Assembly (NCBI RefSeq): GCF_008831285.2
Contig: NC_045145.1
Location: 20,892,802-20,956,801 of the forward strand
Length of the DNA stretch: 64,000 nt
Source of the DNA: Nymphaea colorata
Taxonomy: Eukaryota; Streptophyta; Magnoliopsida; Nymphaeales; Nymphaeaceae
Direction: 5' to 3'
Every line of letters begins with the position of its first letter. Within the stretch, counting starts at the first letter, position 1. The notes beneath the pieces were generated by a model. It was given only the letters and a program-made list of their open reading frames with translations. It did not search any database and had not been told where the DNA came from. The translations under genes and the position numbers were made by a program. Positions 12,200 to 52,015 of the stretch are shown in pieces.

Positions 12200-13864
12200 G
12201 CAGTTCATGAGGGCCATGATCGGTTTCTCCATAGATGGAGAGAGTTCCTCATCTTTTTTGGCATATATTGACATCGGCAATAGCGTTTTCGTCTTGTGGG
12301 GAAGAGAGTTCTTTGTTATTTGGCTTGAGAACGTGACCGCCACATGCATGAAGCTGGGCTGCAATTCAAGGCTTCAAGCCGTGCTAAAATCTTATCAAAA
12401 TGAGACGTCAATTCATGGCAATTATTGTTTCTCCTTTTTTTGGTCCTACGTACTCTTCATCATGGTATATTAATGTAGGCACTTTGAAAGACTAATGTGG
12501 CACATAGTTTGCTACCCAAAGGCATGCTGGTAGGAACATTCTGTCGGGAAGCTACCGGAAAATTCTTCGGTAGCTCTCGAAATTGTGTGGTAGGCGGCCT
12601 GCCCTCTTTTTGCAGCACATGGTTTAGAGGACAACAGGTATATATATATATGGAACAGTCCGTTTCTCCCATGCTGATAGCGGCGCGCCCCCGAAAAATT
12701 GAAAAACTAAGAATGGAGGTACGTCACAGTAATCAATAATATTACATAAGAAAGTTGATAAAGAATGTTGGTGAGAGATGTTCCACAACGTGAAGCTTCG
12801 CACGTGCTTGGTGTACGATGGGCCCATTTCTTCCTTCATTCTGAATTCGATGTTCCACAAATTCAAGTGCCGCACATGCTTCTCTGACGGTCGGCCCACT
12901 TCGTCTCTCATTCTTTAATGCACGAAATCGGTGTCACCGATGACAAACAGCGACAGGATACGTGATCAAGTTGCGTGGCAAAAAATATACACTAAGGCTT
13001 CAAATTTTTATGAAATATATGCATTTTAGACTTTTTGGCATTTTCATAATCTTCTTTTTGTCTTTCTAAAAGATTTCATTTCTTACTTTGTCATAGATAT
13101 TTTGATTATTACAAACTCATGCGCAATTTTTTATACAAGGAAGTGTATAAACTGCAGTCGGATATGTAGTAAGGCCTGTGTGTTCGGTCGCCCTCGTAGC
13201 TCACAAAAACGTCATTTTTTTGGCTGATAGTTGAAATTAATTAGGTTTGTGGAACGCTTAGAGGGTGATTGGACGACATCTTGGTTCTGTGAAAGCTTGG
13301 CTTTACAAAAACTAAGTTTAATGCGTTTTAAAAACCTTGTTATTTATTTATTTTGTTTTACAAATAAGTTTTGTCAAAAACTGGGTTTTGACGCCCAAAC
13401 ACACTAAAAGCATCTAAGCACCTCCTTAGTTTTTGAGGACACAAAATTTTTTAAAATGAAATAAACTGGCCTGTTCTATGTGTTGACAAACAAGATGTCA
13501 GTTTTGTTAGTAATCCAAACACAAATATTGAGCCATGGACTACACTAGTGGCCATTAGGGACCTTTTGGCTTTTTGAATAACCTCACATTCAAGAGTTCC
13601 AGATATGTATTGATGACGGTTATATGATCTTGAACTTCAAGTTATCTTGTGTCATGGTTCTCATGGGCCATATGTGTGTGTACTTGGCGTACGTGAAAAT
13701 AGAATCTAAATGTTAGGCCAGACAGTCACACAGTTGGAGAATTAGAAGAAATGATCTGTTGAATTACATCCATGAGTCTCTTATACATATAGCAGTTTGC
13801 AAATTGAGAAACATCAGAAAGAGTCTGTCTAAACCAATTAGACAGCAGCTCTTAATGTAAATGG
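12200..13864. other. 3' flank of MYB-A, part of the duplicated unit
   Basis: Blocks here recur beside other MYB copies. GACGTCAATTCATGGCAATT at about 12405 matches the 36.18 and 36.28 kb repeats of unit D. The TAAGAAAGTTGATAA/GATGTTCCACAA block at about 12748-12790 matches 30.59 kb (unit C) and 43.72 kb (unit E). The GAATAACCTCACATTCAAGAG block near 13577 matches 21.91 kb (unit B). No separate gene is seen. Confidence 0.6.
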
Positions 13865-15101
13865 TTAAGAATCGTTATCATCCTTCGTCCAGTCCCAAAG
13901 AAATGAATCGCAGAAGAAGTCGCCGAGTTCCTCATCGAGGAACCAATCTCCGGCTCCTCCTCCTCCTAGTGCAAATTGTTCTCCAGGCAGCGATGGCAGA
14001 CTGCAGCTTGACGGCTCTGCAGCAACTGGTAACTGGCCTGCCATCTTCCCGCCGTCCAACGGCTGCGAAGAGCTGGGAGGGATGAGCCTTCGCTTGTTCC
14101 ATGGTGAATACATCTCGCGCAGCAACTCACGCATTCTCTTGGAGATTCTGTGAGGTTGCGGCCTGTAGACGACCGTGCGAGGTGGAGGGGCTGCTGGGAG
14201 CTCCGCTGTAGCTGGTTTGCCTGAAACCCTTTTGGCCAAGTAAGAATTCCAGTAGTTCTTGACGTCGTTGGCTGTCCTCCCGAGCATCCTTCCCGCAATC
14301 AGCGACCATCTTCGTGTAAAATTCGAATGCTACAATTTGTTAGCCAAAATAAATGGAATCTTACTCCGAAATTGATCTGTGAAGAGGCTGGCCGTTCAAC
14401 ATCGTTAATTTTTTTTAAGAAAATGTAATCACACCAATAGACAAAGAACATTCTAAGGCAGTAGATGAAGAAAAACAAATTTCTTCATTTTCCGGATTAA
14501 ATCCTACAATTACATTATGTTATATTATATATACATATATATATTATACTGCCAAAGTTTGTGATTCTTTTGATAAATAAAAAAAACTTTGTTGTTTGAC
14601 CTGTTAAAATTTAAAATGTTAAAATTTAACCTGTTTCCCAGTAGCCGATGCATCCTGACGATAAGGTCCTCCTCATCAATGGAAAACCTACCACGCTTGA
14701 TGTTTGGACTTACATAGTTGAGCCATCTCAGCCTGCAACTTTTACGACACCTTTCGAGCCCTGAAAATATCAATTCCGTCCAAATCTATCCATGTCAAAG
14801 AAACAAAATTTTTACTTTTTTGGGAAGCAGAAATCCACGCTTGGACGTAGCTTGAGACAGTATGTTACCCCCACCTGCACCTTTTCTTGCTTGAAGACCT
14901 AAAGTATCGAAGGCGCCCTCACCACATCTCTACCTGACGCTCAAAACATCAAACCAATGATTGTTTTCTCACAGACACTGGCCCAACCAGCTATACGAAG
15001 TTCTTTGAGGACTGAAGCACCTTTATTATTTATTAGTCAGCATTTTGAACCATCTATGTGCATGTGCCCACATTTCAATGGGTAAAGAAAATGAACAAGG
15101 A

Positions 15102-15135
<34 letters not shown>

Positions 15136-15773
15136 TTTAAAATTAAATATTAAAGAAAGGGGACAAAAAACAGACTCTAAAATTATATATGAAAGTATTT
15201 TTTCTACATTCTAACCTCATACGTATGATTTTAAGAGTGATTTGATGAAAACATATATTAAGTTTAGTAGTTTTTTTAGTAATGTTTTTACTAACCGAGA
15301 AATAAACAATTATTATAACGTTAAAAGTTTTGATAGCAGAAAATTTCAATTTTTTACAAAAAATAACTTGATCTTAAGCAAGATTTGTATAAGATTAGTG
15401 TTTAAAACTACATTAAGAGGTTCACAGTTTATTTAAAAAACATTTTAATACAAATTTAATTTTAGAGGTTAGATCCTTCCCCTTACCCAAGTGGTCCAAT
15501 AACCTTTTTCAACATCAAGTTTTCAAATCAAATCTAGCAAGGCCAAAAGGAACTCTAGGTGAGCTTGTTGTTACAGGAGTGAAGAAGAAGGAAGCTAAAG
15601 CTAGAGATGGACGATGGGGACTTGCCTGCTCTTTGTGGAACAAGGTGCCACTTTCCCTCCCCATACTTCTCCACGCACTTCTTGAGCAAGCAATCTTCCT
15701 CCTTGCTCCATGCACCTCTCCTTATATCCGCAGCACCTGCAGCGGCACTACTGCGGACGGCTGCCGGAGCCAT
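13865..15773 (-). CDS. MYB-A: R2R3-MYB transcription factor, anthocyanin-regulator type
   Basis: Three exons: 15626-15773, 14631-14760 and 13865-14309, giving 240 aa. The 130-bp middle exon and intron phases are typical of R2R3-MYBs. Intron 1 has a GC donor (AG/GCAAGT) and a TTTTCAG acceptor; no GT donor keeps the frame. R2 has W22, W42 and W62; R3 has F75, W94 and W113. The bHLH-contact signature [DE]Lx2[RK]x3Lx6Lx3R is complete (DLIVR to IAGR), and the R3 ANDV motif is present. A C-terminal [11 protein letters not shown] recalls the subgroup-6 KPRPR-type motif of anthocyanin MYBs. An acidic, aromatic tail ([18 protein letters not shown]) is a likely activation domain. The start is the ATG of MAPAAV: a 2-bp insertion relative to MYB-B puts a stop in the upstream frame. 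Oddity: the conserved LPGRT of R3 reads MLGRT. Predicted nuclear activator of flavonoid genes; target pathway inferred. Confidence 0.85.
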
Positions 15774-15849
15774 TGCCAAGCGCCTCTCTCGTTTTGGCAC
15801 TTCTCTCTATGCCTCACTTTGCAGGCAGAAAATTAAGTGGGAGCTTTCA

Positions 15850-15858
15850 CATAAATAG
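15850..15858 (-). promoter_or_regulatory. Putative TATA box of MYB-A
   Basis: CTATTTATG on the minus strand, 77 nt before the MAPAAV ATG. The same element sits at the same place in MYB-B, and as CTATATATG in MYB-C and MYB-E. It is preceded by a conserved block (GGACATGCAAAGCTAGAGAT in A; AAAGCTAGAGATGCAGCCACTG-like elsewhere). Confidence 0.6.
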
Positions 15859-15869
15859 GCAGTGGCTGC

Positions 15870-17640
15870 ATCTCTAGCTTTGCATGTCCGGTTTGGACTA
15901 AAAGTGCATGTAATAGTTACGTTACACGCCCTTGTAGGTGGGCGTTGCTTTGTCTGCGACACCACACGTTGGATATATATGCATTCAACGCCCACAAGCG
16001 TATTCTACGAAAAGCAGTGATAAAAGAAATGGTAATTTAACGCTAATATATCACGTTCATTTTAAAAAGTGGTTAATTTTGAGCTCATCTAAATACCTTT
16101 ATCTTTAAACTGGGTGAGCAAGAGGAGAATCCCATGTACCACACAGGTGATAGGAAAGTCTCTTCCTTTTGCTGTCTTTAATGTCTAGAAACACATCTAC
16201 ATTTGGATGAACTTACTGTTACTCCTTTCAACTCAAAATTACCGTCTAAAAAAATAATGCCCACATAAATCAAATTCACAACCAGACTATACCTAGATTC
16301 TCATTAGCCTGGACCAGCTACGCCTTCTTGTCTCATCTCTATCAAAGAAATGAATGAGTAAGCTGCAATCGCGGTGGTTGTCCACTGCCCGTACATGCCT
16401 TACAGATAGGTCAGAAATGCCATGCTGTCGCCCCTTTAACAGGGAGATGGGTAGTCAAGTTTTTGGGATCTGACGATCGGCAGTATAAAGATATTGGCGA
16501 GGAGAAAGTTTGATCATGGAGAAGAAGAAGCAAACAACGATGTTCAATAATTTGGAAGATCTCCTCCAAAAGAAGAGCTCTCGTTAGTTAACTTGGATAT
16601 GCTAATCCAGTTTCTGACATGATGAACCATGGGTTTAGATTCATAGATAGACGAGGTACGATGGTGTTTTGCTCGATTATATATGACGCCTGCAGATCAA
16701 GATTGGACTAATTCAGAAAGCAGAGATGTAAATAAGTCACTTCAATTATGAATCCAATTGAATTCCAAAGCCCGCATTGGACGCACAAAAGTGAGACTTT
16801 ATTTACATATTAAAATAGTGAAACGAAAGTTCTTTCGCTAATTGCAAAAGATTTAAAGATCGATGCCCCCTGTATCGGACGTATAATGTAGTCTCTATGC
16901 TTCGTTGACCCACGCATCCATCAACATCCCAGTCTCTCTCTCTCTCTCCCTCAAGTTTTAGTAGTGTTCATGCATGTTTCACCTCTTCCTTCTTAACCCT
17001 TCAACATTGAATCGATCAGATACTTATGGTCAGAGAAGCCATTTAATCGCCGTAAAGATTATCTCCCCTTTACCAGCAAATGTTGAGAAATTTTGCCGCT
17101 AGTGTGATAGCACAAAACCCCAGGCTAGTACGCGGGATTCGGCCGAGAATTTTAGGGCCATTAATGGCATTCAATTTGAAGAGGAGGCACAATTGAAAGG
17201 ACAAAACGTTGACAGGCCACCCACTGAAATCATTTATAGACACTGGGCAAATAACCGCTTGCACAATTATGTGGCCCTTCCTGGTAAAGGAAAACTTCAT
17301 ATTAAAGAAAAGAAAAAAATGTGCTAAGAAAGGTGTGACACAATTGGTAAGCAGTCAGTCGCGTGCTCAAATCTCTACTTATGTAAGCCAATACATGTCA
17401 AGACTAGGGAACGAGTTAGCCTTCGAGTGAAGAAGGGGACTTTATTTTTGGAGGAGCAACAATGTCTCTTAGCGAGGGATGGTTCCTTTCAAGTAAAACA
17501 AACATGAATCAAGTACTAAGCGGTAGCTGCTAACCCTGTAGATATTCTTCCCCACCCAACATGGTTAAAACCTACATGTGCACTATTTCTCATCGAACAA
17601 ATGACAGGCGACTTCAGACGTTCAAGGAAATCCTGCAGAT
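15870..17640. other. Upstream region of MYB-A, duplicated upstream of MYB-D
   Basis: Long stretches match 38.37-40.40 kb in order. Examples are the CTCTATGCTTCGTTG block (16895 and 39525), the AGATATTCTTCCCCACCC block (17538 and 40320) and GATTTAAAGATCGATG (16851 and 39482). No gene lies between. Confidence 0.7.
17325..17470. repeat. SINE-like (tRNA-derived) repeat, unit A copy
   Basis: It contains a box-A-like GTGTGACACAATTGG and a box-B-like GTGCTCAAATCTC about 30 nt apart, followed by GAGTTAGCCTTCGAGTG. Copies at 40105-40255 and 48415-48560 occupy the matching place upstream of MYB-D and MYB-E. No poly-A tail or target duplication is clear. Confidence 0.35.
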
Positions 17641-18120: not shown

Positions 18121-18240
18121 ATTATCCAACTGTTTATTCATGTGCTCGCCAGGTCAGGGTTTAAATTAATTGGCTGTAGGCAGAATCTTATGGTCCAGTA
18201 ACCACCCATACACAAATGCTTCAAGAAAACATCTGGAGTG

Positions 18241-18960
18241 AGACGTTATCCCACCACCCAAATGGAAGCCCTTTCTTTTGTCTTTAGGTGTAGCTATACC
18301 AGTCAAGATATGTAAAATGAGAGGCTATCGTCCCACCCACATGAAAGCCCTTTCTTTTGTCCTTAGGTGTGGAGATAGAACAATATCATTCGAGATATCT
18401 AAAGTGAGAGGTTATCCCGCCGCCCAAATGAAAACCTTTTCTTTTGTCCTTAGGTGTAAAGATACAACAATGCCAGTCGAGATATCCAAAGTGAGAGGTC
18501 ATCCCACCGTCCAAATGGAAACCCTTTCTTTTGTTCTTAGGTGTATAGATACAACGATACCAGTCGAGATATCCAAAGTGAGAGGTCATCCCACTGCCCA
18601 TATGGAAACCCTTTCTTTTGTCCTTAGGTGTAGAGCTACAACTATACCAGTGAGTGGATGTCCACATGCTTCTTTTGTCCTTAGGTGTAGAGATACAATG
18701 ATACCATTCGAGATATCTAAAGTGAGAGGTCATCCCACCGCCCAATTGAAAACCCTTTCTTTTGTCTTTAGGTGTAGAGCTACAACTATATCGGTGGGAT
18801 GTCCACATACTTCTTTTGTCCTTAGGTGTAGAGATACAACAATACCAGTCGAGATATCTAAAGTGAGAGGTCATCCCACCGCCCAAATGAAAACATTTTC
18901 TTTTGTCTTTAGGTGTAGAGCTACAACTATACCAGTCAGTGGGATGTCCACATGCTTCAA
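18241..18960. repeat. Minisatellite, 87-bp unit with ~55-bp short variants, nine copies
   Basis: The anchor CTTTTGTCCTTAGGTGTAGA repeats at about 18272, 18351, 18438, 18525, 18612, 18669, 18756, 18810 and 18897. Spacings are 79, 87, 87, 87, 57, 87, 54 and 87 bp. The short units lack the GAGATATCTAAAGTGAGAGG portion. All spacings but the first are multiples of three, so long frames are open on both strands (18278-19024 plus, 18386-19090 minus), with a 29-residue period such as VRGHPTAQMKTLSFVLRC. I read these frames as by-products of the array, not genes. Confidence 0.9.
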
Positions 18961-21720: not shown

Positions 21721-21880
21721 TATTTTATAAAAAAAATGTACATTTTAAACTTTTCACATTCGTCATAACATTCAACTCTTTTTTTTCACTTAAACACAAT
21801 CTGTGGGTTATGACAGTGCACAAGCTTATATGCACTCCCGTGTGCACATAACCCCGTTTGGCTTGTGGCATTGTATCCGT
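18961..21880. other. Intergenic between units A and B, no gene recognised
   Basis: 19440-19600 has repeated GTGGCACACACCACATGCC / TGCCACTAAAGG words, reminiscent of transposon termini. 20250-20500 has TGTTGGAACTTTCGGTTCCACC, which could be a retrotransposon LTR edge, but no second edge was found. 20770-20945 is a copy of the T-rich dispersed repeat also seen at 9.8 kb. No coding gene is supported. Confidence 0.45.
20965..21016. repeat. (AT)n microsatellite
   Basis: About 50 bp of AT dinucleotides with one interrupting G. Shorter AT tracts lie at 21685-21715 and 23080-23117. Confidence 0.95.
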
Positions 21881-22140
21881 TTTCAGAGTCTTCCCTTTTG
21901 GCTTCCTGAATAATCTCACATTTAAGAGTTTGAGACGTATATTGATGATGTTTCTCATGGGCCTTGTTTGTTTGTGAATTGTCTTCTGGGAGTGTAAATA
22001 GAAATTGAAAACAAAGCTGCTTCGAATCTGCCAACGCTTGGCGCTTGAATTATAAATAAAGCAATTTACAAATTGAGAAACATCAGATTCTCAGACAGAC
22101 AGAGGCAGAGAGTCTGTCTAAACCAACTTGATAGCAGTTC

Positions 22141-23077
22141 TTACTGTAATGGTGATGAACCCGTATCATCCTTCGTCAAATCCCAAAGAAATGAATCACA
22201 GAAAAAGTCGTCGAGTTCAGGATCGAGGAACCAATCTCCTCCTCCTCCTAGTGCAAGCTCGTCTTCTCCAGGCAGCGATGGCAGACTGGAGCTTGACGGC
22301 TCTGCAGCAACTGGTGACTGGTCTGCCATCTTTGCGCCGTCCAGCGGCTGCGAAGAGCTGGGAGGAATGAGGCTTCGCTGGACCCATGGTGGATACGTCT
22401 CGCGCAGCAACTCATGCATTCTCATGGAGACTCTCTGAGGTTGCGGCCTGTAGACGACCGTGCGAGGTGGAGGGGCTGGTGGGAGCTCCGGTGCAGCTGG
22501 TTTGCCTGAAACCCTTTTGGCCAAGTAAGAATTCCAGTAGTTCTTGACGTCGTTGGCTGTCCTCCCGGGCATCCTTCCCGCAATCAGCGACCATCTTCGT
22601 GTAAAATTCGAATGCTACAATTTGTTAGCCAAAATAATTGGAATCTTACTCCGCTGGCGAAATTCAGCTGTGAAGAGGCTGGCCGTTCAGCATCGTTAAT
22701 TTTTTTTTTAAGGAACTGTAATCACACGAATAGAGACAGCATGTTCTATGGCAGTAGATGAAGAAAAACAAATTTTTTCTTTGTCCGGATTAAATTTTAT
22801 GCCTTGACAAGCTTATGACTATTAAGATTTAAATATTGAATTAACCCCGATATACATACGGCAATTTGATATATCTTTTCTCGATCTTATAATTTTAAAC
22901 ATGTTGTATGTATCGGTATATTTATTTTAAATTTAAAAGCATCCAGGAAAAGGCTGCAACGTCCGGACAGCTAAAATTATTGCCTTATAATTAATTGAAT
23001 GGCCTTATCTTTCTGACAACGCCGTACGTACTGTCTTTTCTTGATGTTTCTAAATGTCATGAAAATATATAGAGACA

Positions 23078-23119
<42 letters not shown>

Positions 23120-25294
23120 AGAGAGGGAGAGAATGATGAGATTTCTCCGGTCGAGTTTCGACAAAGAATCCTCTCACATGGTATGGATGGGGAGATCGCC
23201 ACTCGACAGGCTGCAGATACCAAATGCCAAAAATTGTCGATGATTATTTTGATAAATAAAGGCTTTTTCAGATACCAACAAAATCTTTTGAACAGAAAGC
23301 GACTGTTCAAGATCGCTTTCTGTATGCAGTTTTTCTGATATATAGGCGTCAGTTTTGCAATGTAAAGGATAGTTTAAAGGTTAAAATTTAACCTGTTGCC
23401 CAGTAGACGATGCATCCTGACGATAAGTTCCTCCTCATCAATGGCAAACATACCACGCTTGATGTTTGGACTAAGATAGTTGAGCCACCGCAGCCTGCAA
23501 CTTTTTCGACACCTTTTCAGCCCTGAAATATCCATTCCGCCGAAAGCAATGTCATAGAAACTTTTTTTTTTTTTTTTTGGCAAGTAGAAGTAGAAGTCCT
23601 TTGAGCAGATTCCTTTATTATTTATTAGTCGGCATGCGCTTTGAATGTATAAAAAAGAAAGACAAAGAACGAAAAGGGTTGTTTGGCAACCGTAACAGTC
23701 TCATAAATTTGACCCATTTTTTTGTTTTGTGTTTTATGAATTTGCTGTACCTTTTTTGTGTATATTTATGAGACAGTAAATGCGTGCTATAGTTGTGGAA
23801 GGGCCCGTAAAGGAGAGTCTGGACAAGGTTCATAAGTAAGCGTCCATGTGCCACTCTTACACATTTTTCTACGGCCAAATGGACGGATGGGTCCACTGGT
23901 ATAAACATATATACATGTATATAGGAAGTTGGAAAAAAACATATTACTTGAGTACAAGACTGAAATCAAAATCAATAAAATTAATTATTAAAGTGTTTTT
24001 TTCTTTTTGCAAACTAACCTTATGAATATAATTTATGAGTGATCTGATGAGAAACAAACATTAAGTTAGTCATTTTTTTAATTTTAATAATATTTTTTAG
24101 TAATCGAGAAACAAACTACTATTGTTAGAGCAAAATTTTGGTAGTAGAAAATGTCAAGTTTTTTATAAAAATATCTTCAAATAAAACATGATTTATATAA
24201 ATTTGGCATTTATAAATACATTAGGAAGTTCAAAAGTTTATTTAAAACACTTTTTAATACAAATCTAAAAGTCTTGGGATTTTTCCCTTAAGTGGTATGG
24301 TATTTATAATTACTTTGTGTGTGTGTATGTGTGTATATATATATAATCTTGATTGCCAAAAGATCAATGTCCTGCTGCCTATCCTGGTCGATGAAAGTGA
24401 CATTTGTGTGTGATCTTCATGTTGTAGTTGCCCAAGATTTTTGTACCTGGCATACCTAAAAGCATAATTGGGCATAAGGAGCCAACTTTCCACCTCACCG
24501 TAACAGCCTCGCACGACAAATTATCCAAATTTATCCGACGGTTTAGGTCTCATTTTCTCTCCGGCGGTTAATTAAGCAAAGTTCGCATATTCAAATTTAA
24601 GGTGGAGGAAAAAAAAAGGAAACAATTTAAGTACATTCTTTGGTGCTTCCGGTGGATCGACTTCAATTCTCGGTCTTCTGTCCACTTACATGACAAACAA
24701 GGAAAGGAAGGAAGTATTTTCTGCAACTCAAGCCACAAGTATACCAAATTATGTTAAAAGGAGTGGGAAATGGGACACTCGTCTTATGCGCCGCAGCACC
24801 CATGGTAATCAAAACCAGTTACAGTACATCCCTCATGGTCCTGGAAACGAAGCTTAGGATTTTGCTATTTTTTGTGAGCCTTACGTCACGGGTACTTTGC
24901 ATAAAAGGTGGAAGCCTAAATATTATATAGTAATGTACTTGTAAACATTCTCTTGACATAGGCCGCGAGCTCTATAACCTCTTTCAACTTCAAGTTTTTC
25001 AAATCAAATCTAGCAAGGCCAAAAGGAACTCTAGCTGAGCTTATTGTTACAGGAGTGAAGAAGAAGGAAGCTAAAGCAAGAGATGGACGATGGGGACTTG
25101 CCTGCTCTTTGTGGAACAAGGTGCCACTTTCCCTCCCCATACTTCTCCACGCACTTCTTGAGCAAGCAATCTTCCTCCTTGCTCCATGCACCTCTCCTTA
25201 TATCCGCAGCACCTGCAGCGGCACTACTGCGGACGGCTGCCGGAGCCATTGCCAAGCGCCTCTCTCGTTTTGGCACCTCTCTATGCTTCACCAT
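22141..25294 (-). CDS. MYB-B: R2R3-MYB transcription factor, anthocyanin-regulator type
   Basis: Exons 25102-25294, 23393-23522 and 22141-22594 give 258 aa from ATG 25294, or 243 aa from the internal ATG at 25249. The internal start matches MYB-A. The upstream ATG lies only about 30 nt after the TATA box, so transcription may start too close for it to be used. Intron 1 is GC-AG (AG/GCAAGT); intron 2 is GT-AG. R2 and R3 are complete: [58 protein letters not shown]. The bHLH-contact signature and ANDV are intact, and the C-terminal motif reads YRPQPQRVS. The tail ([23 protein letters not shown]) is acidic and aromatic. Closest copy in the window is MYB-A. No disabling change is seen; this and MYB-E are the best functional candidates. 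Confidence 0.87.
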
Positions 25295-40104: not shown

Positions 40105-40255
40105 TGTCCAGAGGGGTGTGGCGCAATTGTCGGTCTTGCCTTCAAATCTCAAAGACACCCACTTCTTGCATAAGCCAATACAGGCGTCCGACAAAGGAAG
40201 GGGCTAATGGCCTTCGGGTGTGAGTTGGGTTGTTATTTTTAGGCGAGCAACAAAG
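40105..40255. repeat. SINE-like (tRNA-derived) repeat, unit D copy
   Basis: GGTGTGGCGCAATTGTCGG resembles a box A region and CTTCAAATCTCAAAG a box B region. It then has GGCTAATGGCCTTCGGGTGTG. Homologous to 17325-17470 and 48415-48560. Confidence 0.35.
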
Positions 40256-41230
40256 TCTCTCAGCCCGAGCTGGTTCGTTTTAAGCAAAACACACATGGAA
40301 GTGAGCAGCTGCGAACCCTGTAGATATTCTTCCCCACCCTACGTGGTTAAAACCTATATATGCAATATTTCTCATGCAACGAATTATGACATCTTACTAT
40401 GGAAATCCTAGCTATTTTTAACTTAAGCCCGTGACTTCAAACAAGAAGTGGACCTCTCAATAGCATTGGATAGCTTTTTCAAGTCAGAGTCATTTATTTT
40501 CTTGATTGCACACGAGTTCTACTAAATTCCTTTTCAAATTTGGGCCTAAGGAAATGTCCCCCGGCAAGGTGTGAGATTAAGCTTTGATCTGTATTCACAT
40601 TATCAGATTTCAAATTTTCTCGGTACATCCGTTGGCATGTAAAAACGTCGCCAGTAACTTGAAAATATCTTGATTTTACTGTGACAGTCTCAAACTTGTG
40701 TTCATCGAGATTGGTGAACGTACGTTCCAGATGCTAATTTAAATCCGTTTGAACATTAATGACCTGCCAGAGTCACCGGATCTGCTCCGACGACCTGATT
40801 ATTTGAGCCACCCACCCTTAATTACAATGTTTCAATTTTGCTGTCACACCTTGATGTGCTTTCAGATTTCACCCTGCTACACCGCTACTATTTACAGTCT
40901 AAAAGAGTGCATATTAAAATCGATTGGATGACCATACTCTCGTAAAACTACCATCCCAACCAACTATACTGTACCCCTCAAAACAAAAAAATCTTCATAC
41001 ATATAAAGGTTTAAAGGTCTGTAGGTACAAATACTTTGTATGGATTGGAGACTCGGAGAAGGATGTGATCTGGTACATCCACTTAAAAATATTGATAGAT
41101 GCCACCTACTAACCACCTGATAAAATAAATGAGAAATTTTCAGAAGCGGTTAAATATGCATTCAGCTAATTCAATTGTTCAACTTGTATATCAATGCCTC
41201 CCCCCCCCCCCCCTATTTTGTAGTGTAGAG

Positions 41231-41376
41231 CAGGGTGAGCTCAGGATTTTTTTTTTTTTTTGAAAAAATCAAATTTTTTTAGTTTGGCCCAACCGATCGC
41301 TCCTCTTGGCCCGACTTTGGCCCGGCCCGCAAATCGTCTTGGCCCGACCCTAGAAAAAATCCTGGCTCCGCCCTTG
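41231..41376. mobile_element. hAT-like MITE with 8-bp target-site duplication
   Basis: The left end CAGGGTGAGCTCAGGATTTT and the right end AAATCCTGGCTCCGCCCTTG are inverse repeats. Flanks are GTGTAGAG (41223-41230) and GTCTAGAG (41377-41384), a 7/8 match as expected for a hAT insertion. The 146-bp interior is non-coding, with TTGGCCCGACTTTGGCCC words. Confidence 0.65.
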
Positions 41377-41384
41377 GTCTAGAG

Positions 41385-43080
41385 AGTTAGATGTAATAAG
41401 CGCCCAAAACAAAAATTGGCTACCCAGCTACCAGCCGCTTTCGTGTCCATTGTGCGAACCCCTTGAGATAAACTTGTTAACGATAACAAATTATTGAAAA
41501 CTACGTTACTTATGAATGACTAAGGCAACATCTGATGTCTTATGTCCCAACAAATTATTGTATTTTGTTTTTCCCAACACAACCTAAAGGGAAATTCATG
41601 CCTAAGGTGAAACCCCATCGCCATGCTCCTCCATTGCAAGTTAATGGTGACGAACAAGGTGATGTATATGATTGGCTTGTGCCAGAAATGACACCTACCG
41701 ATTTGGACTGTTTCCACTAACAAATGAAGGAATCCCTCAGTAACGTATCTTGCATGCCTGCCCGCTTGTCGATGATTAAGAGTGTTATGTTGGTGCATTC
41801 TACCAAAATAGAATGGGACTGCGACTGAAAGTGATGTGGTGAATACATAATGTTTATGGAAATTAAAGAAAATAAAATTTAACTTTTTTAGAGAATTTAA
41901 AGAAAATAATCGTTGATTAGGCACAAAATTTTTCTCTTGCTAAATTTCTACAATTATTCTTCGTAAAAATATCACTCCAATTTTATCGGATGTCCGGAAG
42001 AGGTTTTTCTTATCATGATATATACAAAAAGAGAGCACCTTTTCAGTGAACAAGCACCATCTACTTTATCGCCAGGGTCCAGCTGCATAGAGACTTAGAA
42101 GTGGATATAATATAGTGCATAAGACTTTGTATAACCAAGAAAAATGGGTAAGGGTATATGTAATTAACTTAGGTCAAAGATAAAAACCAGTCCCATTGAT
42201 TTTTTTGTTCAAAAATTATTTTAAATATAATATAAATATCTTAATATATTTATAAAAACTATTTTGACATAAAACATGTTTTGATTCAAGCTGTTCTAAT
42301 GAAAAATGTTGACTTTTTTATTATCATGGGGGACTTTTTTATTATCATGGGGCCTGTTCATTTTTTCATTATAAAAACATCACTAAAGTCTAACGAATGA
42401 TCAACTTAGTATATGTCAACTTATTCTTAAGATCACTTACATCAATAAGGTTAGATTGTAAAAAAACACTTTAAAAATCAAAATCAAAGGGATTTGGCTT
42501 TTATCTCTGTCTTGTTTATGTTTCAGTTTTTAACAAAGTTCTCAAATATATATATATATATATAAGCTTGAGAAAAAAACATACTTGTACGTTCACTTTA
42601 TGTGATTGACATATTTAACTGTTCCTGTATCAAAATTATAGAAGGAAAGGTGACCTGTAGCCATTATATTTTCTTTGTTTCTTCCAGTTCCATTATTTCC
42701 TTTCTTTGTCGTCCAAAAGTAGCAAAACTAGAGTCTTGCACAAACTCTAAGACTAGCTGGAAACCGGATCCTTCTTGATTTTCAAACTGCGTCTACAAAG
42801 CTTAATGGTCTCCGAATAAGACGAACAATATTGCAACTACTTCAAACCTTAAAAGATAGTTTGTACAAGCACATATTAGAAATACAACAGATAGTATGTA
42901 TATGTATATACATACTTACATAAAAAATGCATGAGACTGTGTGTTTAATCATACATGCCCAATACAATACATCATGTCGTGCGGTTGTGATTGGACGAAA
43001 TTCAAGATAACTTAAAATAAAAACCATCCATCTTATTTAAACTCATTTTTCATATTTATTAATTAATTTTCTAACTTTTT
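41385..43080. other. Distal part of unit D, no gene recognised
   Basis: Homologous to unit B at 27.96-28.92 kb. Short duplications occur at 42318-42350 (TTTTTTATTATCATGGGG twice). An AT tract lies at 42547-42565. Confidence 0.5.
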
Positions 43081-43084
43081 AGTT

Positions 43085-43445
43085 TATTTTGGGTTGATCC
43101 TACCGTTCCTCCCCACCGCCTCCCTCCCTTCTCCGCCGGCCATCGGCCTGAGATGGTGGCGGGAATGGATCCTCCCTTCCCCTTCCTTCCCACGACAAAA
43201 GATGTCAACCTTCCGGCGGCGTCTGAACGGGGAGGGGAACCGCCGTACGACGGCAAGGAAAAAAACCCCCCTCCCCCATTCTCCCCACTACAGAACATGG
43301 AGAGGATGAGGAGAGGGGGGATCCATTCTCACCTTCCCACGGTGGCCCCTTCGCACCTATCGTCAGGCAGCTCAGGCCAACGGCTGGCGACCCACCGGCT
43401 GTCGGCCTAAGTGCTGTCGGATGGCGGCGGAGAAAGGTAAGGAAG
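43085..43445. other. GC-rich patch of foreign composition
   Basis: About 360 bp of C/G-rich sequence (CCACCGCCTCCCTCCC, TCCGGCGGCG, GGTGGCGGGAATGG) sit in AT-rich surroundings in the 3' flank of MYB-E. Overlapping Gly/Pro/Arg-rich frames are open on both strands, as expected from composition alone. No counterpart is obvious in the other units. It is probably a captured fragment or transposon piece. Confidence 0.45.
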
Positions 43446-43578
43446 GCAGTGGGGAACAGAAGTTCGAAAAGAATGCATATAAAAGAAATAACAATAATGA
43501 TTAGGAAATATAACAAAACAGGTAAAATGGTGATTTTGATGGCTGAGGATGTGAATGGAACCTAGTGTGAGCATTCAA

Positions 43579-43613
<35 letters not shown>

Positions 43614-43953
43614 CTATCCGTACACCTTTGTCACTCCATCTTATCGAATCGAGACCGTACATCCCCAACAAACCAAGGGAAACAAATACAACAATGTTAG
43701 AATAACAAATAATAAATAAAAAAGTTGATACTGTTGATAAGATGTTCTACAAATTGAAGTGTTTCACACGCTTCTAAGTAATACGTTATGACTTAGAGCA
43801 TAGTACATTCTTTTGCTTGTCACGCAGTGAAGCTTCTGAAGCGTATACAGATTCTGAAAAGAAAGCGGTTTCATATCCGCCACTTTTGGATTATCTACAA
43901 AGCACTCTACAAACGATACTCAGAAAGAGAGAGCGAGAGACAGAGAGTAGCAC

Positions 43954-46523
43954 TTAAAGTAATGGCGACGAACCGTTATCATCCTTCATCCAATCCCAAA
44001 GAAATGAATCACAGAATAGGTCGTCCAGTTCGGCATCGAGGAACCAATCTCCTCCTCCTCCTAGTGCAAACTCGCCTTCTCCAGGCAGCCATGGCAGACT
44101 GGACCTTAACGGCTCTGCAGCAACTAGTAACCCGTCTGCCGCAACTGGCAACTGGTCTGCCATCTTCGCGCCGTCCAGCGGCTGCGAAGAGCTGGAAGAG
44201 TGGAGGCTTCGTCGATCCCATGGTGAGTACGCCTCACGCAGCAACTCACGCATTCTCATGGAGACCCTGTGAGCTTGCGGCCTGTAGATAACCGTGCGAG
44301 GTGGAGGGGCTGCTGGGAGCTCCATTGCAGCTGGTTTGGCTGAAACCCTTTTAGCCAGGCAAGAATTCCAGTAGTTCTTGACGTCGTTCGCCGTCCTTCC
44401 CGGCAATCTTCCCGCAATCAATGACCACCTTTACGTAAAATTCGAACGTTACAATTTGTTAGGCACAACACATGGAATTCTGAATTTCCATTTCCGTCAC
44501 ATAGTGTAAAAAAAATTATGGAAAGCTGATACACTTGGCCGGCGAATTTCAGCTGTGATTAGCATCTTAATTTTTTTTTTTTTCTGAAGAAAATGTAATC
44601 ACAAATAGTTTACAGAATGATCTAAGTCAGTAGACAAAGAAAAACAATTTTTTTCAATGTCCAGATTGGTTCTTTTGTCTCGACCAACTTATGCCTGTTA
44701 ATCTTTAAATGTTTATATAACCTCGGTTACATATGAAATCTTTATATAGATCTAGTCATATGTTGGTACATACAAAATGATCGAATTCATATTATAATTC
44801 TTTTGATAAAACAAAAGAGTTTTAAAATACCTAAACCTTTTTACCTGTGTTTAGCATTTACGATTTAAGTGCTATGTTATTACCTGTTTCCGAGTAGCCG
44901 TTGCATTCTGATTATGAGGTCCTCTTCATCGGTTGAGAACGGACCGCGCTTGATGTTTGGACTCAGATAGTTGAGCCACCTCAGCCTGCAACTTTTACGA
45001 CACCTTTTCAGCCCTGAAATGTCAATTCGATCCGTCGAAATTTATGTTAAAAAATAGTATTGTGGGTTCAGTGGGGATCCCAATTGCATGTGTTTTTTTT
45101 TACAATCTTGGACTTTTTGGAGGTTTAATTTCAAAGCTTGGAAGAAAGAACGGAGAAAAGGAAAAAATTGTTGAAAGGTGCAGCTTGTTTCAATAGTTTC
45201 AATGTAATGTAATGTAATAAGACAAGAAGTCCTGAGGGGCATAGCTCAAATTGGAGGGAGGGTTAAGACAAGTATTTAGGCCTGCAAGGAGCTATACTTT
45301 TTTACCAAAAAAGAGAAGTGGGTCTCTCTACATGTAAGTAGAAGCATGTAGACATCCCATCCACTCGATGTCGATGTAGTTTTGGACCTTGAGGTAAAGG
45401 GAATGGCTCTCGTTTTGCCGGCGATTGGATAACCTCCCACACACACAAATAGCGTATGAAGACAAATAGTGTATGAAGACAATAGATATCACTTTCGGCC
45501 CTGCCCGTGAATAAACTGGCTGCGTAATGGACCAAGTCCAGGCCCAACCAGGTTTACATCACTACATGGGTGGGCCAATTGGTCACTGGGTCCATCTGGT
45601 TTGGCCCGATGCCCGTCGTAGACTTACGGTCTGCCAGCGCCAAAGGACAAAAAACATTGTTAGGGAGAAAGACATTAATTCTGTGCAAACACTGTTGTGG
45701 ATGGAGTTTCCCGGAAATGAAAGAATCAAACAAGAAGGGGATCCCTCCTGGACTAACTAAGAATAGACCATTCGGAAGACAGATACGGATTCAAAGACCT
45801 AGACAAAGGCTGCAGGAATTCATTTACACAAGTAAATCTCATCCCACAGACAAATCCCTCCGCTACATCTCCATCCTCCATTCCTGAAGCTAGTAGTTAG
45901 GCTGAGAGAGTATGTTGTTTGTGTGCCTTTTGTTACACAAATAAGAAATTACTTTATTTTCCCAAGCCAAACATGCTATTTTGACAGAAAAACGTGTGAA
46001 AGGAACGAGGCAACGCCTTTTGAGAAGCACCAAGCACGAGCTAACCTTTTGGAGCTCACACCAAACCAAGGAGACGGTGGATTTCCTCTTTGTTCATGAT
46101 TTCAACAAATTGTTGTGAGACTTTTCCCTTGGTTGAAAGCATAAAGGTAGGAAGTTACCATCTTCAACGCCCACCAGATGAAACAATCATTGGTCTCTCG
46201 CTGTCGTTGGCACAACCAACTATACTGAGCCCCTTGATCCTCCATGGAGAAGCCCTCGTTAATGACAAAAAATCCTTGTTTGAACAGAAAAAAAGAAATT
46301 TTTTTGAATAGACAAAAATGGAAATCGAAAAGGCGAAACGACTCAAAAGTGACTTTTTTTTTCTGTAATTTCAACCCTCTTTTTTCTTTTTGGCGTATGA
46401 TTGTTGCATGCACCAACCAGCACACTCAACTCAAACTCGTATTTTTCTACCTTACAGCATCCCCACCTAATTTTTTTGTAACAACTTATGGTTACAAGTC
46501 CTTCACTGAAACCAAGCTTTTCA

Positions 46524-46555
<32 letters not shown>

Positions 46556-46827
46556 TGAATAGTGATTATGTTTTTTGAGTCGTGCAGCTATCTAACTGAA
46601 GCAATCTAACCTTTCATAATGAATGGTTAATAGAAAAACAAGGTAAAAAAGGTGATGGGTGTTTATACCATCTATACTATTAGTTTGCACTTTTTTTTCC
46701 CTTTGTTTCCGGCTGGATGACTATGGATAGTCAGTGCCATCATTTACTTACACACAAGTGTCATGAAACAGTTACTAAAGTATCATAATTAACCATCCAG
46801 CAACATTTCGCAATTGGCTTATTTCAA

Positions 46828-46896
<69 letters not shown>

Positions 46897-47793
46897 CTCA
46901 CGTCCTTCTCCTGCTTATTGGTCAAAAGTGTTATCTGTACATGTGTTATTCATGTTGCAGTTATAATATTTATGTACCTGGAATAAGCTTATGAGCACAA
47001 TCGGGCATAAGGGTGCAAATTTAAGCCTCACCGAGTACGCGAAAAATGAAGTTGTTCATTGGTTTACCTCTTATTTTATCTGCAGGTGTAGTTCACCCGC
47101 TCAAGTTTCAAGAAGGAATAAATTCAAGGACTTTTTTTGCTGCTTTTAATTTGCGGTCTTCTGTCTACCCATTCAGGAAAAAGGAGTAAGACGTTAGAGC
47201 GATGGTTCACCCATTATGACGAAACAAATCGCCCGTGATGCTGCATATAAACATGAAACCTTCATATATTATAATCATGTTTATGCTTCCAATCATTCTT
47301 CTGCAAATGGCTTTTGTGCTCTATGGTTTTTTTCAACTTCAATAAGGTTTCAAATCAATCCAAACTATTGTTTTTCTCTCTGCCACCGTCCTAGCCTACT
47401 TAGAGATTGGGTAGGAGAACAGCACACTTATCAATTAAAAGTGTTGTAAATCCATTAATTGCAGTCTATTAATTGCAGTCTAGAGGAACAGCGCTTATTG
47501 AAATAAAACTGATAGCCGGACTTTCACCAGCTTTCTAATTCATCCAACTATGCTACGCCCTTTTCAAGATGATGTCGGAATGATGCCAAGGAAAGTCAAA
47601 AGACAAATTACATGGACTTGCCTGCTCTGTTAGGAACAAGGTGCCAATTTCCCTCCCCATATCTCTCCATGCATTTCCTGAGCAAGTTGTCTTCTTCTTT
47701 GCCCCACGCACCTCTCCTTACGCCGGAACATGCAGAACTGGGGGCCGTTGGCGGAGCCATTAGTGGAGCACCGCGGGCGGTTGGCGGAGCCAT
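43954..47793 (-). CDS. MYB-E: R2R3-MYB transcription factor, anthocyanin-regulator type
   Basis: Exons 47622-47793, 44884-45013 and 43954-44428 give 258 aa. The start ATG ([10 protein letters not shown]) has an in-frame TAA eight codons before it. Intron 1 (2.6 kb, the longest of the set) is GC-AG; intron 2 is GT-AG. R2 has W30, W50 and W70 with SCRLRW intact. The bHLH-contact signature ([20 protein letters not shown]) and ANDV ([11 protein letters not shown]) are intact. The C-terminal motif reads [12 protein letters not shown] 7-residue insertion ([15 protein letters not shown]), shared with MYB-C and absent from A and B, follows. The acidic tail ([23 protein letters not shown]) is complete. 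This is the intact member of the C/E type. Predicted nuclear MYB partner in a MYB-bHLH-WD40 complex. Confidence 0.87.
45525..45890 (+). repeat. Dispersed repeat inserted in MYB-E intron 1
   Basis: Same element and orientation as 32485-32845 in MYB-C. The neighbouring 45240-45520 segment has no counterpart in MYB-C and may be a further insertion. Confidence 0.6.
46833..46893. repeat. (AT)n microsatellite in MYB-E intron 1
   Basis: About 60 bp of pure AT; another shorter tract lies at 46528-46555. Confidence 0.95.
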
Positions 47794-47852
47794 CAGTGGG
47801 GTGCTTTTCTTTTGTTACTTCTCTATATGCCTCGGCCTTTCCTTGATGAATG

Positions 47853-47861
47853 CATATATAG
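47853..47861 (-). promoter_or_regulatory. Putative TATA box of MYB-E
   Basis: CTATATATG on the minus strand, 60 nt before the ATG; identical to the box of MYB-C and preceded by the conserved AAAGAGATGCTGCC block. Confidence 0.6.
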
Positions 47862-48414
47862 ACAACGGCAGCATCTCTTTGAATGTCTGCTTTGGACTAA
47901 AGATGTAAAGTTATATGCCTTTGTAGGTGGATATTATTTTGTTGGTGTATATGCATTCAACGGTCACAGTTAATCATTTGACCTGAGGACCCGAAAACCA
48001 AGCTGGAGTCTCGGATTTACTATTCAAAGCTGTTATAGAAGACGTGTGTATTTTAACACCAATATCACGTTAATTTTAAACATGGTTAACTTTGCGGTCA
48101 TTGAAACTGGATTACTAGGGGCTGAGGTATCAAAATAGTGAGAAGAAAATTCTTTAAAATTACTTTGTTAATTACAAAAGGATTAAAGATTCTATAATCC
48201 TCCCAATCGTTCACCTCTCTCTCTCTCTCTCTTTCTAGGTTTAGCATACGTACTTGTTGATTCTTCTCCTTTGCCTGCCTTTTGCGTGCCTGCTGAAATT
48301 TGCCAAAAACCACACAGGTAGAGAAACTTTGTCGCTTGCATTGCCCGGTTGGCCCGATTTTGGACACGGGTGCGTCCTTGCAAATACATGCATTCTTTCC
48401 CTTAATATTAAAAG

Positions 48415-48560
48415 GAACAAGTGCCCCAGAGAGACTGTGGCTGAATTTATAGGTAGTTGGTCACTTGTTCAAACCTCACAGCTTTCAAATGTGGAAATAT
48501 GCCCCTTGGCTAATGGTTTTTATGGGTTTTACGCTTCGGAGGAGCGATAAACTCTCTTAG
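48415..48560. repeat. SINE-like (tRNA-derived) repeat, unit E copy
   Basis: GACTGTGGCTGAATTTATAG is in the box A position and TTGTTCAAACCTCAC is a good box B. The downstream part has GGTTTTTATGGGTTTTACGC and TTCGGAGGAGCG, a tail style seen in plant tRNA-derived SINEs. Confidence 0.4.
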
Positions 48561-48596
48561 ACCATGCTTGTCCTTTCCAAGTTAAAAACACACACA

Positions 48597-48631
<35 letters not shown>

Positions 48632-49735
48632 ACCCTCGGCAAATCTTGTGGATGTTCTGAACTTTGCATTGCATGGTTAAAACCTATATATGTAGGTACA
48701 TATCGAACTAATAAGGGAGCAGAGAATTTAAGCCTGTGGTTTCAAACGAGATGTGGACCTGTCAGTAGCATTGGATACTTGTTCCACAATCAGGGTCATT
48801 TATTTTCTCATTGATATTAATTGATTTTTGAATTGGGACATAAGGAAATGTGCTCGACAAGAGGATTTCCAAACAACAGTGGATTGGGTCAGCTATTTAC
48901 TTCAAAATATAAGTGCATGAGCCCGAGAGACTAGAGAAAGTTGAAGCCCACGGTACCCAGTAAAAAAGGGAATGACATTTTGGTAATTTGTTTAAAAGAA
49001 ATGTTTTCTATAGTCTTTTTACTTTTTCTTATTTTTAATTTTGTCTTTACAAAAAGTTTGTTTCAATTATGAAGTAACGATATTTTAGTCAGTATTGGTT
49101 ACGAATATTGATTACGAAAATTTGTGCACCCGTATGTCATATACAACCAAGTTCACCCAAAGACACCAAGACAAAACACAGAAAGAGCCAAAATGCTGAA
49201 AAGCTGGTTAGCTGCAGCTTAGATTGGAGACGTGGTTATGTGCACCGTGCGTTACGTGCACCGCTTTGTATGGTGCACATCCATAAGGGCACAACTTCTG
49301 TCTCATTAGCCCACTTTCATTGGAACCTTGATCCAATTTGAAGGGTACGTGTCATGCACATGAACCTATGCACAATGCAAAGCTTCACTTAAACTGGAGT
49401 GAATAAGAAGCGACAAACCTAAGTGTTGGACCACTTGGCCCAATTGCCATCGTGTCAAGGCCCGATCTGCCCGATCTGCCAAATTGAGGGCTTCAAATCT
49501 ATTCTCCTTATCCCAAGAACTCTCTTGGTCAGTGTTTATCATCATTCTTGGAGGTTGTCATGCTAACTTTACCTGGTGCCATTCATTTGAGGCCAGGGAT
49601 GGGATGATGCTAACAGTGCAACTGGCTACCATGACCCCCCTTAAGCTTTGAAAAAAATCAAATTTTACTATATAAATTTTACAAAAATTTTCTCTTGGCC
49701 CCGATAAAAAATTTAAAAATTATTTAGTAACATTT
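48561..49735. other. Distal upstream region of MYB-E, no gene recognised
   Basis: It contains an AT tract (48600-48628), blocks homologous to units C and D (48700-48850), a T-rich dispersed repeat (48970-49130) and a GTGCACCGTGCGTTACGTGC segment. A degraded GGGATGGGATGATGC / CTCTTGGCCCC region at 49600-49700 resembles the hAT-like MITE family. Confidence 0.45.
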
Positions 49736-50390
49736 TCAAGTAAAATTTTTGGCATTGCTACTGTAACACTCTCGAAGTTTAGTCCTGTATCGAATATTGT
49801 GAGGAATCTTCAAAGACTTATAAAGGGAAGTCATTAACAAGATTATTGATCTGGTTTCTATCTTTTGTGGAGTTGAAACTGAAACTGCTAAGGAGCCGTT
49901 TAGGCTCCGTTGAATTCGGAGCTCAAACTCAAAAGTAGGTCGAGTTGTTACAGCTACTGGCATCAACCCACTTGTGTCCATCGAGTAGAACAAATGTACT
50001 AGTTGATGTACATTGGAATCCCAAGAAAGTGGTAGATGGCTTTTTCCATTAAGTCTAACCTTTCTTTTTTATTTTTTGCTTCTATCCCAAGGGTCAGTAC
50101 CTCGCTTGACTTGATTAGTGCTTTGGCGATTCTTTTTGCAAAACCATCGAACCATGGAGATTGGTCGATTGCTACAAAAGACGCTATCGCCTGAGGAAAC
50201 AGAGGCACTGAGGGAGGCGGCTTGTTCTCTGGAAAGGGCGATGGCCAAGAAGAGGACAGTGAGCGATGAACTAAAAGAAGGAAGAAGGAGAGAGAGGAGC
50301 TTTGACACTGTGGTGGTTCTTTGGCATGTTCCTACGCATAAAAACTACTGCTTCAGACATGTTGCGTCTTCATGGGGCCATTGGTAGTTT
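49736..50390. other. Coding-like but unassigned segment
   Basis: Open frames exist on both strands. The minus frame (49999-50208) includes KSSEVLTLGIEAKNKKERLD. The plus frame (50154-50330) reads MEIGRLLQKTLSPEETEALR, then LERAMAKKRTVSDELKEG, with an amphipathic, charged composition. Neither is recognised; they cannot both be genes, and no splice partners are evident. It may be a captured gene fragment. Confidence 0.2.
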
Positions 50391-50767
50391 GCTCAAGTAC
50401 TCCAGCCACTTCAGGAAACAACTTATACATTATGTAAAAAAGAAAAATTTTATTGAAAAACAACACTTTAGAAGCATTGAGGCATTACCTGATCTCTTAT
50501 ATCCCAAACAATTTTCTTTTAAACAGTTTGGTGTGAAATTCAAGGCTAAACTTTTAGTACAACAAAAAGAATTTATCTGCTACGACCACTGCTTAGAACA
50601 AGGGTCGTAGCGAACGATACTCTGCTCCTCCATCTCCCAACCTATTTGATTTCTCCCCATGAATAGCCCGCGAACGTCTTTATGTCTCCTGCCCAGCAAA
50701 TGAGGGAAGAAGACTCTCGCAGCAAGAACTCATGGAGATTAGCAGTCGCAGGAGTTAGACCACTGTG

Positions 50768-50966
50768 CAGGGGCGGAGGGGGGGGGTTCACCTAGGCCGT
50801 GGCCCGCCTCAAACTAGCTGGAAAAAAAAATTTACATTAGAAAAATAAAAAAAACTTAATTGTTCAATGTATTTTTTTTTTTTACTTAGGTTCAGTTTGG
50901 CCCTACCCAAATTTGAGGTTGGATTATTTGGCCCGTCCCTAAACGCAATCCTGGCTGGCTCCCCTC
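50768..50966. mobile_element. hAT-like MITE, inverted relative to the 59.5 kb copy
   Basis: The left end is CAGGGGCGGAGG. The right end has CCTGGCTGGCTCCCCTC. Flanking octamers are CCACTGTG and CTACCGTG (6/8 match). Its reverse complement aligns with 59478-59672 through GGCGGGCCACGGCCTAGG, TACATTGAACAATTAA and CCAGGATT. Confidence 0.55.
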
Positions 50967-50974
50967 CTACCGTG

Positions 50975-52015
50975 AAAAATATCTTTGTCAATGGTAAACT
51001 AATTTATTGGCAACAACAAACATCCAAGCCAATAACCATGTTTGTTGTCGTGCTTGTTTTGACAAAGCTGGTTATATGCTCCCACCTATTTTCCCATACA
51101 TCCTACACAAACCTGAATCCTTGACACCTACCAGTAAGAATGAGTCATGGCCCCTTTGAAAGTGGGTTGGGAAACACATGTCCCGCACTAGGAGCTGTGC
51201 ATGGTGCACCCCGGTGCACGTAACTGCCTCTTTTGGTTCAAAGTAAATTGCAAGTTAATGGTGATGTATAAGCACAAGAAGTGACGGCTACTGGTTGGGA
51301 CTGTTTCGTCTAACAAACAAGGGTTCCTCCAGTTACGTACGTTGCGTATAAGAATAACATGTTGGTGCACCCACCATATGAGGGAGAGGGTTTGGGCAGT
51401 GAGCGAGACTAGTATGGTCAATGCACCAAGAAAGGGAGGGAGATTATTAAGTTGAGTTTAAGGAATTAATTTAACCGTTTACATGTACTTAAGAAAATAA
51501 ATTGGATTAGGCACATAATTTAGCTCTTTGTAAATTACCATAGTTACTTTGTTTATAATAATATATGCTAAAAACAGAGCAATATTTTTGAGTGAATGAG
51601 TATCACTCACCCATCATTTGCCTCTAGGATCCAAGGCTTGAAAGTGAAGAGGAGGAGGATCATATATATGTCATAAAAGTAAATATAAAAAACTTGACAA
51701 AAAAAAATTAATCAAAGTTGTTGCACTTTCACTTTATTTAATTGGCAAATATGACCGGATTCTGTATCAAATTTATCGAACGGAAAGGACCCGTAATGCT
51801 TATATTTTCTTTGTTTCTTGCCCCCATTATTTTTTTTTTTTTCTTTGTCACAAGCGATCCAAAATAGCAAACGATAGTCTTACACAAATTAGACCAACTG
51901 GAACCGGATCCCTGATTAGCAAGCTGACCGACAATGCTTAGTGATATCAGATCAAGATGAACAATATTGTAATCGCTATAGACCCCACATAGGAATGTTA
52001 ATTAGTTAATTGGAT
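50975..52015. other. Right end of the duplicated array, no gene recognised
   Basis: Blocks match unit B and unit D distal ends. GCAAGTTAATGGTGATGTAT at 51250 resembles 41637 and 28178. GGAACCGGATCC at 51901 is the last block shared with the other units. Confidence 0.5.

Follow-up and report, generated by a model that had tools for sequence, protein, structure and literature searches.

A head-to-tail array of subgroup 6-like R2R3-MYB genes in the water lily Nymphaea colorata

The locus considered in this article is a tandem array of R2R3-MYB genes in a 64,000-nucleotide stretch of Nymphaea colorata DNA (C8:20892802-20956801, on contig NC_045145.1), which is referred to as the window. Among described systems, the VvMYBA genes of grape comprise 12 tandem replicates that form a clade on chromosome 2, with three more on chromosome 14, and gene conversion is raised, in the accessible portion of that report, as an undecided option for their within-species similarity (PMC8012628). 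For MYBs of subgroup 6 (SG6) in monocots and early-diverging angiosperms, the available text describes "few to none local duplications", together with a motif, KPRPR[S/T]F, that occurs in most eudicots, is intact in few early-diverging sequences and is divergent, as RPQPR/K, in monocots (PMC8063865). Within the genus, a survey of Nymphaea colorata gives, in its accessible sections, 59 R2R3-MYBs, six of them in tandem, with eight on chromosome 1 and at most seven on any other, and NcMYB25 is reported there to raise anthocyanin in apple skin (PMC11548254). Additionally, possible membership in S6 is mentioned for 12 MYB unigenes in the available part of a study of Nymphaea atrans (PMC13115826). 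No description of the present array was found in the open-access literature, including the Victoria and Nymphaea MYB113 papers, which was covered mostly at the level of titles and abstract openings, and the word "Nymphaea" was not found in the accessible texts of DupyliCate or the MYB atlas.

The evidence assembled below makes it quite probable that the locus holds eight or more SG6-like R2R3-MYB genes in a head-to-tail array, which was shaped by repeated copying of a unit and by short gene conversions and whose intact copies are candidate activators. The array is older and larger than a previous sequence-only reading of the window had recognised, and is ordinary in kind and unusual in lineage.

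Extent and composition of the array

The genome searched comprised 407,766,735 bases in 783 contigs, and the window was extended by flanks of 60 kb on the left and 50 kb on the right, giving 174 kb of joined sequence without any N, in which negative coordinates lie left of the window. The five units proposed by the sequence-only reading were recovered by self-BLAST with and without exon masking at closely similar limits (approximately 12.4-17.6, 21.8-28.9, 30.3-35.4, 36.1-42.8 and 42.9-52.0 kb), and, as had been claimed, all five genes (A1, A2, C1, Ad and C2) stand head to tail on one strand, the minus strand. Five is the correct count for the window and not for the whole array, which runs about 25 kb beyond the left edge, where three extra units (B1, M and B2) are found. 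In total, at least eight units of types A, B and C, with M counted among the A-type, occupy about 77 kb, and the window covers the right-hand five-eighths. The order from left to right is B1, M, B2, A1, an inverted C remnant (C0), A2, C1, Ad and C2. Exon queries against the rest of the fetched flanks returned simple repeats only, with no further MYB units.

An 86-kb segment (approximately -30 to 56 kb), in which the MYB exons had been masked in all eight units, gave 145 noncoding self-matches of at least 45 bits and more than 2.5 kb apart, 125 direct and 20 inverted, compared with 21 when the segment was matched to its own reversed sequence and 0, 0 and 0 for three dinucleotide shuffles of it. 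Homology therefore extends beyond the exons, and the suggestion that flanks, introns and upstream sequence are homologous in the same order holds. Direct matches between units are collinear, except for two order breaks each in C1-C2 and M-C2, and inverted matches, one to five each, occur in five of the unit pairs that stand head to tail. The features by which a tandem segmental gene array is recognised, namely copies set head to tail and flanking homology in a shared order, are accordingly present at this locus.

Gene models were built for seven units (A1, A2, C1, C2, B1, M and B2; Ad was not modelled), each with three exons, an exon 2 of 130 nt and an intron 1 that begins with GC (AG|GCAAGT) in every one of the seven; in the spliced model of A1, intron 1 reads AG|GC..AG and intron 2 GT..AG. 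Frames are intact in six of the eight units (A1, A2, C2, B1, M and B2). The A and C types and the dead copy Ad, which lacks exon 3 as well as most of intron 2, had been named by the sequence-only reading, which had not reported the inverted C remnant or the early stop of C1 at 31338, where the C-terminal region carries on in a different frame. C1 additionally shows changes of conserved residues (CRLRW to CWLRW and ANDV to ANNV). Upstream of A2, 55 T in a row (25559-25613) form a possible weak point of the assembly.

Table 1. Positions of array units, genes and other features, numbered from the first letter of the window
Feature	Position	Strand	Basis or remark
Unit A1 with flanks	12397..17602	-	self-BLAST, exon-masked
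A1, intact gene, 240 aa	13865..15773; exon 1 15626-15773, exon 2 14631-14760, exon 3 13865-14309	-	spliced model, two Myb_DNA-binding stretches
Unit A2 with flanks	21778..28918	-	exon-masked self-BLAST
A2, intact gene, 243 aa	22141..25249; exon 1 25102-25249, exon 2 23393-23522, exon 3 22141-22594	-	spliced model, Pfam
Unit C1 with flanks	30347..35420	-	exon-masked self-BLAST
C1, probable pseudogene, 221 aa	31338..34003; exon 1 33832-34003, exon 2 32226-32355, exon 3 from 31701	-	spliced model
Unit Ad with flanks	36090..42841	-	exon-masked self-BLAST
Ad, dead copy	37397..38383; exon 2 ~37397-37527, decayed exon 1 ~38235-38383	-	sequence comparison
Unit C2 with flanks	42873..51972	-	exon-masked self-BLAST
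C2, intact gene, 258 aa	43954..47793; exon 1 47622-47793, exon 2 44884-45013, exon 3 43954-44428	-	spliced model, Pfam
B1, intact frame	exons between -24084 and -21940, left of window	same array	spliced model
M, intact frame	exons -12511 to -9699, left of window	same array	spliced model
B2, intact frame	exons -3946 to -1588, left of window	same array	spliced model
B2 upstream block, homologous to B1 upstream	2785..5137		self-comparison; B2 gene itself left of window
A1-A2 near-identical tract	15499..15800; partner ~24975-25276		alignment
Inverted C-type remnant C0	17846..19216; intron-1 pieces 17846-18145 and 18863-19017, exon 2 remnant ~19042-19216	+	self-BLAST
Minisatellite, periods 87, 141 and 174	18237..18958		inside C0
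Noncoding island, ~3.6-4.3 kb upstream of ATG	Ad 42717..42841; A2 28800-28918; C2 51875-51972		exon-masked self-BLAST, alignment
Noncoding island, ~0.9-2.0 kb upstream	Ad 40420..40502; C1 35212-35330; C2 48712-48827		self-BLAST, alignment
Neprosin-domain exon	54115-54492	-	relatives on many chromosomes, clusters on C6 and C7
Tandem duplication, 199-bp unit, 91% alike	55090-55463		self-BLAST, repeat scan

Between A1 and A2, the pieces of C0 are arranged around a minisatellite. An intron-1 stretch of C1 used as a genome query matched three places only, namely C1, C2 and C0; C0 therefore comes from a C gene, and the idea that the C intron-1 sequence is a transposon is not supported. From this one remnant we infer that the array may once have held three A+C pairs. 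The minisatellite itself has open frames on both strands, and a genome search with 18526-18958 matched its own locus only.

In seven units, the 180 bp before the ATG can be aligned around a TATA-like motif, CTAT[AT]TATG. Farther upstream, two noncoding islands, both common to A-type and C-type units, may be candidate enhancers. Genome searches with the distal and the proximal island each returned two places, both in the array, with the weaker C2 copy of the former and the C1 copy of the latter missed. The islands were also considered as transposable elements, which these searches, not exhaustive in that each missed a known weaker copy, do not support.

Duplication history and exon-scale mosaic

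Noncoding identity was weighted over detectable matches, and only these were counted, so that all values lean high. Within type it amounts to 80.3% for A2-Ad and 81.4% for C1-C2, in comparison with 71.3-73.8% across type (A2-C1, A2-C2, Ad-C1 and Ad-C2). This is the pattern predicted by the duplication of an A+C pair, and the proposal of the sequence-only reading, that A and C separated first and the pair was duplicated afterwards, is supported by it as the probable course of events. Further values are 72.3% for A1-C1, 75.1% for A1-Ad, 85.7% for B1-B2, 79.9-83.5% for M against the three other A-type units, and 82.1% for A1-A2, the last being inflated in part by the identity tract at exon 1.

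Synonymous divergence (Ks) was calculated over the whole coding sequence, with C1 and Ad excluded. Measured against a single, intact relative located at C13:6875301-6879800 (intron 1 begins with GT), it is 0.85-0.95 for the six array genes, or 0.69-0.80 for exon 3 alone, close to the Ks peak of about 0.9 given for the whole-genome duplication (WGD) of Nymphaea colorata in the available text of its report (PMC7015852). Lower values are found within the array: 0.47-0.52 for A-B (M included), 0.38-0.39 for A-C with M-C2 lowest at 0.32, 0.105 for A1-A2 and 0.081 for B1-B2. From these values we infer that all expansion of the array came after the water-lily WGD, and the C13 relative is possibly its WGD partner. 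Synteny support for this partnership was sought with three flanking open reading frames, all uninformative: two, possibly PPR-like, have many weak relatives across the genome, and the third (Neprosin) has matches on various chromosomes, including one at a distance of 0.7 Mb from the C13 gene. The WGD link is thus drawn from Ks.

Exon-sized tracts do not always follow the history of the units. No difference between A1 and A2 occurs in the 198 nt of 15603-15800, which spans exon 1, compared with 6 differences in 104 positions at 15499-15602 in intron 1, 24 in the adjoining 96 alignment columns upstream of the tract (with each gap column counted on its own) and 12 among the 130 positions of exon 2; Fisher tests of the 198-nt tract give p 2e-13 against the upstream columns and 1e-5 against exon 2. 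The alignment provides strong evidence for gene conversion as the putative origin of this tract. In M, exon 1 (93.8%) and exon 3 (91-92%) are A-like and exon 2 is C-like, with 94.6% identity to C1 and C2 versus 82-85% to A1, A2 and Ad, and the C-like block takes in 41-46 nt of intron at 91-95%. In approximately unbiased (AU) tests, exon 2 rejects two topologies that place M with A (p 0.048 and 0.0005), exon 2 with 46 nt of intron rejects the one such topology tested (p 0.015), and exon 1 rejects three topologies that place M with C (p 0.017, 3e-5 and 0.015); exon 3 favours M with A (p for M with C 0.071, 2e-22 and 3e-5). There is good evidence here that gene conversion probably made the C-type exon 2 of M. 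Segmental units, as proposed by the sequence-only reading, stand, and block duplication alone is insufficient, as single-exon trees disagree on M. Exon 1 was also considered as a sign of ancient A-B conversion: its Ks is low (0.14-0.18 for A1/A2 versus B1/B2), but the topology test is undecided, and such a conversion is therefore not claimed.

According to the proposed mechanism, a unit consisting of a single gene with its upstream region would have been copied again and again by unequal exchange after the WGD, with B separating from A/C first, A from C next, the A+C pair being duplicated thereafter, and B1/B2 arising last. Short gene conversions would later have shifted exon-sized tracts among copies, and surplus copies would decay.

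Protein class and weighing of alternatives

Two MYB stretches (Pfam PF00249) were detected in all five spliced models scanned (A1, A2, C2, B1 and M). The motif for interaction with basic helix-loop-helix (bHLH) proteins, [DE]Lx2[RK]x3Lx6Lx3R, is present in seven of seven models, and the [A/S/G]NDV site of R3 reads ANDV in five of them (B1, B2, A1, A2 and C2), ANGV in M and ANNV in C1. Four references were compared, namely Arabidopsis MYB75, TT2 and MYB12, whose sequences did not come from a database record, and WER, taken from a PDB hit. Six array genes have R2R3 regions with 70-75% identity to MYB75, versus 53-66% to the other three, and a tree with these four references groups the six genes, the C13 relative and three genes of a second array with MYB75, apart from WER, TT2 and MYB12, with 99% ultrafast bootstrap. 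The anthocyanin-type class assigned earlier is supported by the R2R3 similarity and by the motifs. KPRPR[S/T]F is absent from all seven models, which carry RP[QK][AP][HQ]R at that site, resembling the monocot RPQPR/K of the accessible text (PMC8063865); with the motif often degenerate outside eudicots, the proteins are therefore SG6-like and not canonical SG6. The most likely function of the intact copies would be that of activators, predicted to form a MYB-bHLH-WD40 (MBW) complex with a bHLH partner and to induce late anthocyanin genes.

Several observations weigh against parts of this account. Noncoding identities of 79.9% for A1-C2, over 219 bases only, and of 75.8-76.8% for M-C lie above the other A-C values, M having a C-type tract; Ks for B-C2 (0.64-0.68) exceeds that for A-B, so that the B-first order is not clean; and exon 1 topology tests leave the grouping of A+B versus A+C undecided. 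As for the mosaic, one topology with M beside C is not strictly rejected by exon 3 (the AU p of 0.071 above). The stricter Shimodaira-Hasegawa (SH) test gives weaker results than AU, with p 0.098 (not rejected) and 0.007 for M with A in exon 2, and 0.17, 0.12 (neither rejected) and 0.0007 for M with C in exon 1. A GENECONV-like permutation test in our own implementation, restricted to exons (7 sequences, 250 polymorphic among 690 ungapped columns, 2000 permutations), yielded no fragment that reached significance globally (minimum p 0.0975 across all pairs and 0.006 for a single pair). The permutation and SH results, with the undecided exon 1 topology of A, B and C, would suit a plain tandem array without conversion, its mosaic being the noise of short exons combined with unequal selective constraint. 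Such an array is nevertheless unlikely, given that the A1-A2 identity extends past exon 1 into noncoding sequence at either end and is adjoined by the divergent columns upstream, that the C-like block of M includes intron sequence, and that AU rejects rival topologies of exon 2 and exon 1 in opposite directions.

Collapsed or mis-joined haplotypes might also yield extra copies, and a single assembly was available, with the 55-base homopolymer T run noted upstream of A2; but copies whose detectable noncoding matches mostly show about 71-88% identity are too diverged for alleles, they are interleaved by type and collinear, and the 174 kb are joined without N, which leaves an assembly artefact highly improbable. 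The predicted function is weakened by the missing KPRPR[S/T]F and by the fact that NcMYB25, the one published activator of Nymphaea colorata, could not be placed on the assembly. The same array might instead have another task, its members serving as MBW-type MYBs for another flavonoid branch or for cell fate, in keeping with the motif loss and with the ANGV that M and the C13 relative have in place of ANDV. We regard this as improbable in view of the prevalence of ANDV and the bHLH motif in the models, the closest R2R3 similarity being to MYB75 among the four references, and the frequent absence of the canonical motif from early-diverging and monocot SG6 homologues in the accessible text (PMC8063865). 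An array of SG6-like candidate activators, built by unit copying and conversion, thus remains the preferred reading.

Relatives in the genome and comparison with known systems

A second MYB array lies on the minus strand about 0.7 Mb away (C8:20105026-20198796), with at least seven exon-2 and at least seven exon-3 matches and at least two open models. It represents a related subfamily with ANDIKNRWNSHL, whose exon 3 is about 50% identical to that of the window array, and intron 1 begins with GC in all five of its genes examined; one exon-3 match, at 20198614, is of the window array's type and looks decayed. In the window, no Rfam family at gathering threshold and no tRNA was detected.

The array provides a concrete candidate locus for Nymphaea flower-colour variation and a test system for exon-scale conversion among transcription factors, and its copy number may be polymorphic, as the sequence-only reading suggested. 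Provided that contig C8 is chromosome 8, its two arrays together already contribute six intact genes from the array described here and two or more open models from the second, compared with at most seven outside chromosome 1 in the accessible sections of the survey, which therefore probably misses some MYBs (PMC11548254). The candidate S6 unigenes of N. atrans are consistent with several SG6-like genes in Nymphaea, though the available text offers a transcriptome only, with no genomic arrangement (PMC13115826).

With the SG6 MYBs of Piperales and other early-diverging angiosperms, the array shares an SG6-type R2R3 domain and a degenerate KPRPR, but the water lily has eight copies or more within 77 kb, in place of the few or absent local duplications described in the accessible text (PMC8063865). 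If the subgroup reading holds, an eight-unit water-lily array with a single C13 relative at WGD-like Ks contradicts the statement of "few to none" (PMC8063865); judging from the literature available, such clusters were previously thought rare in early-branching flowering plants. Like the grape VvMYBA cluster, whose members are anthocyanin activators, the locus consists of tandem SG6-like MYBs; unlike grape, a eudicot with subgroup-6 C-terminal motifs, the water lily belongs to the grade of Amborella, Nymphaeales and Austrobaileyales (ANA), carries RP[QK][AP][HQ]R, displays a visible exon mosaic and has a predicted function (PMC8012628). It is conceivable, if somewhat doubtful, that an SG6 cluster like that of grape arose independently in the water lily, its exons being homogenised one by one through conversion while promoters and introns diverge; one DNA-binding module would then be shared by differently regulated copies, and the locus would regulate blue petal pigment.

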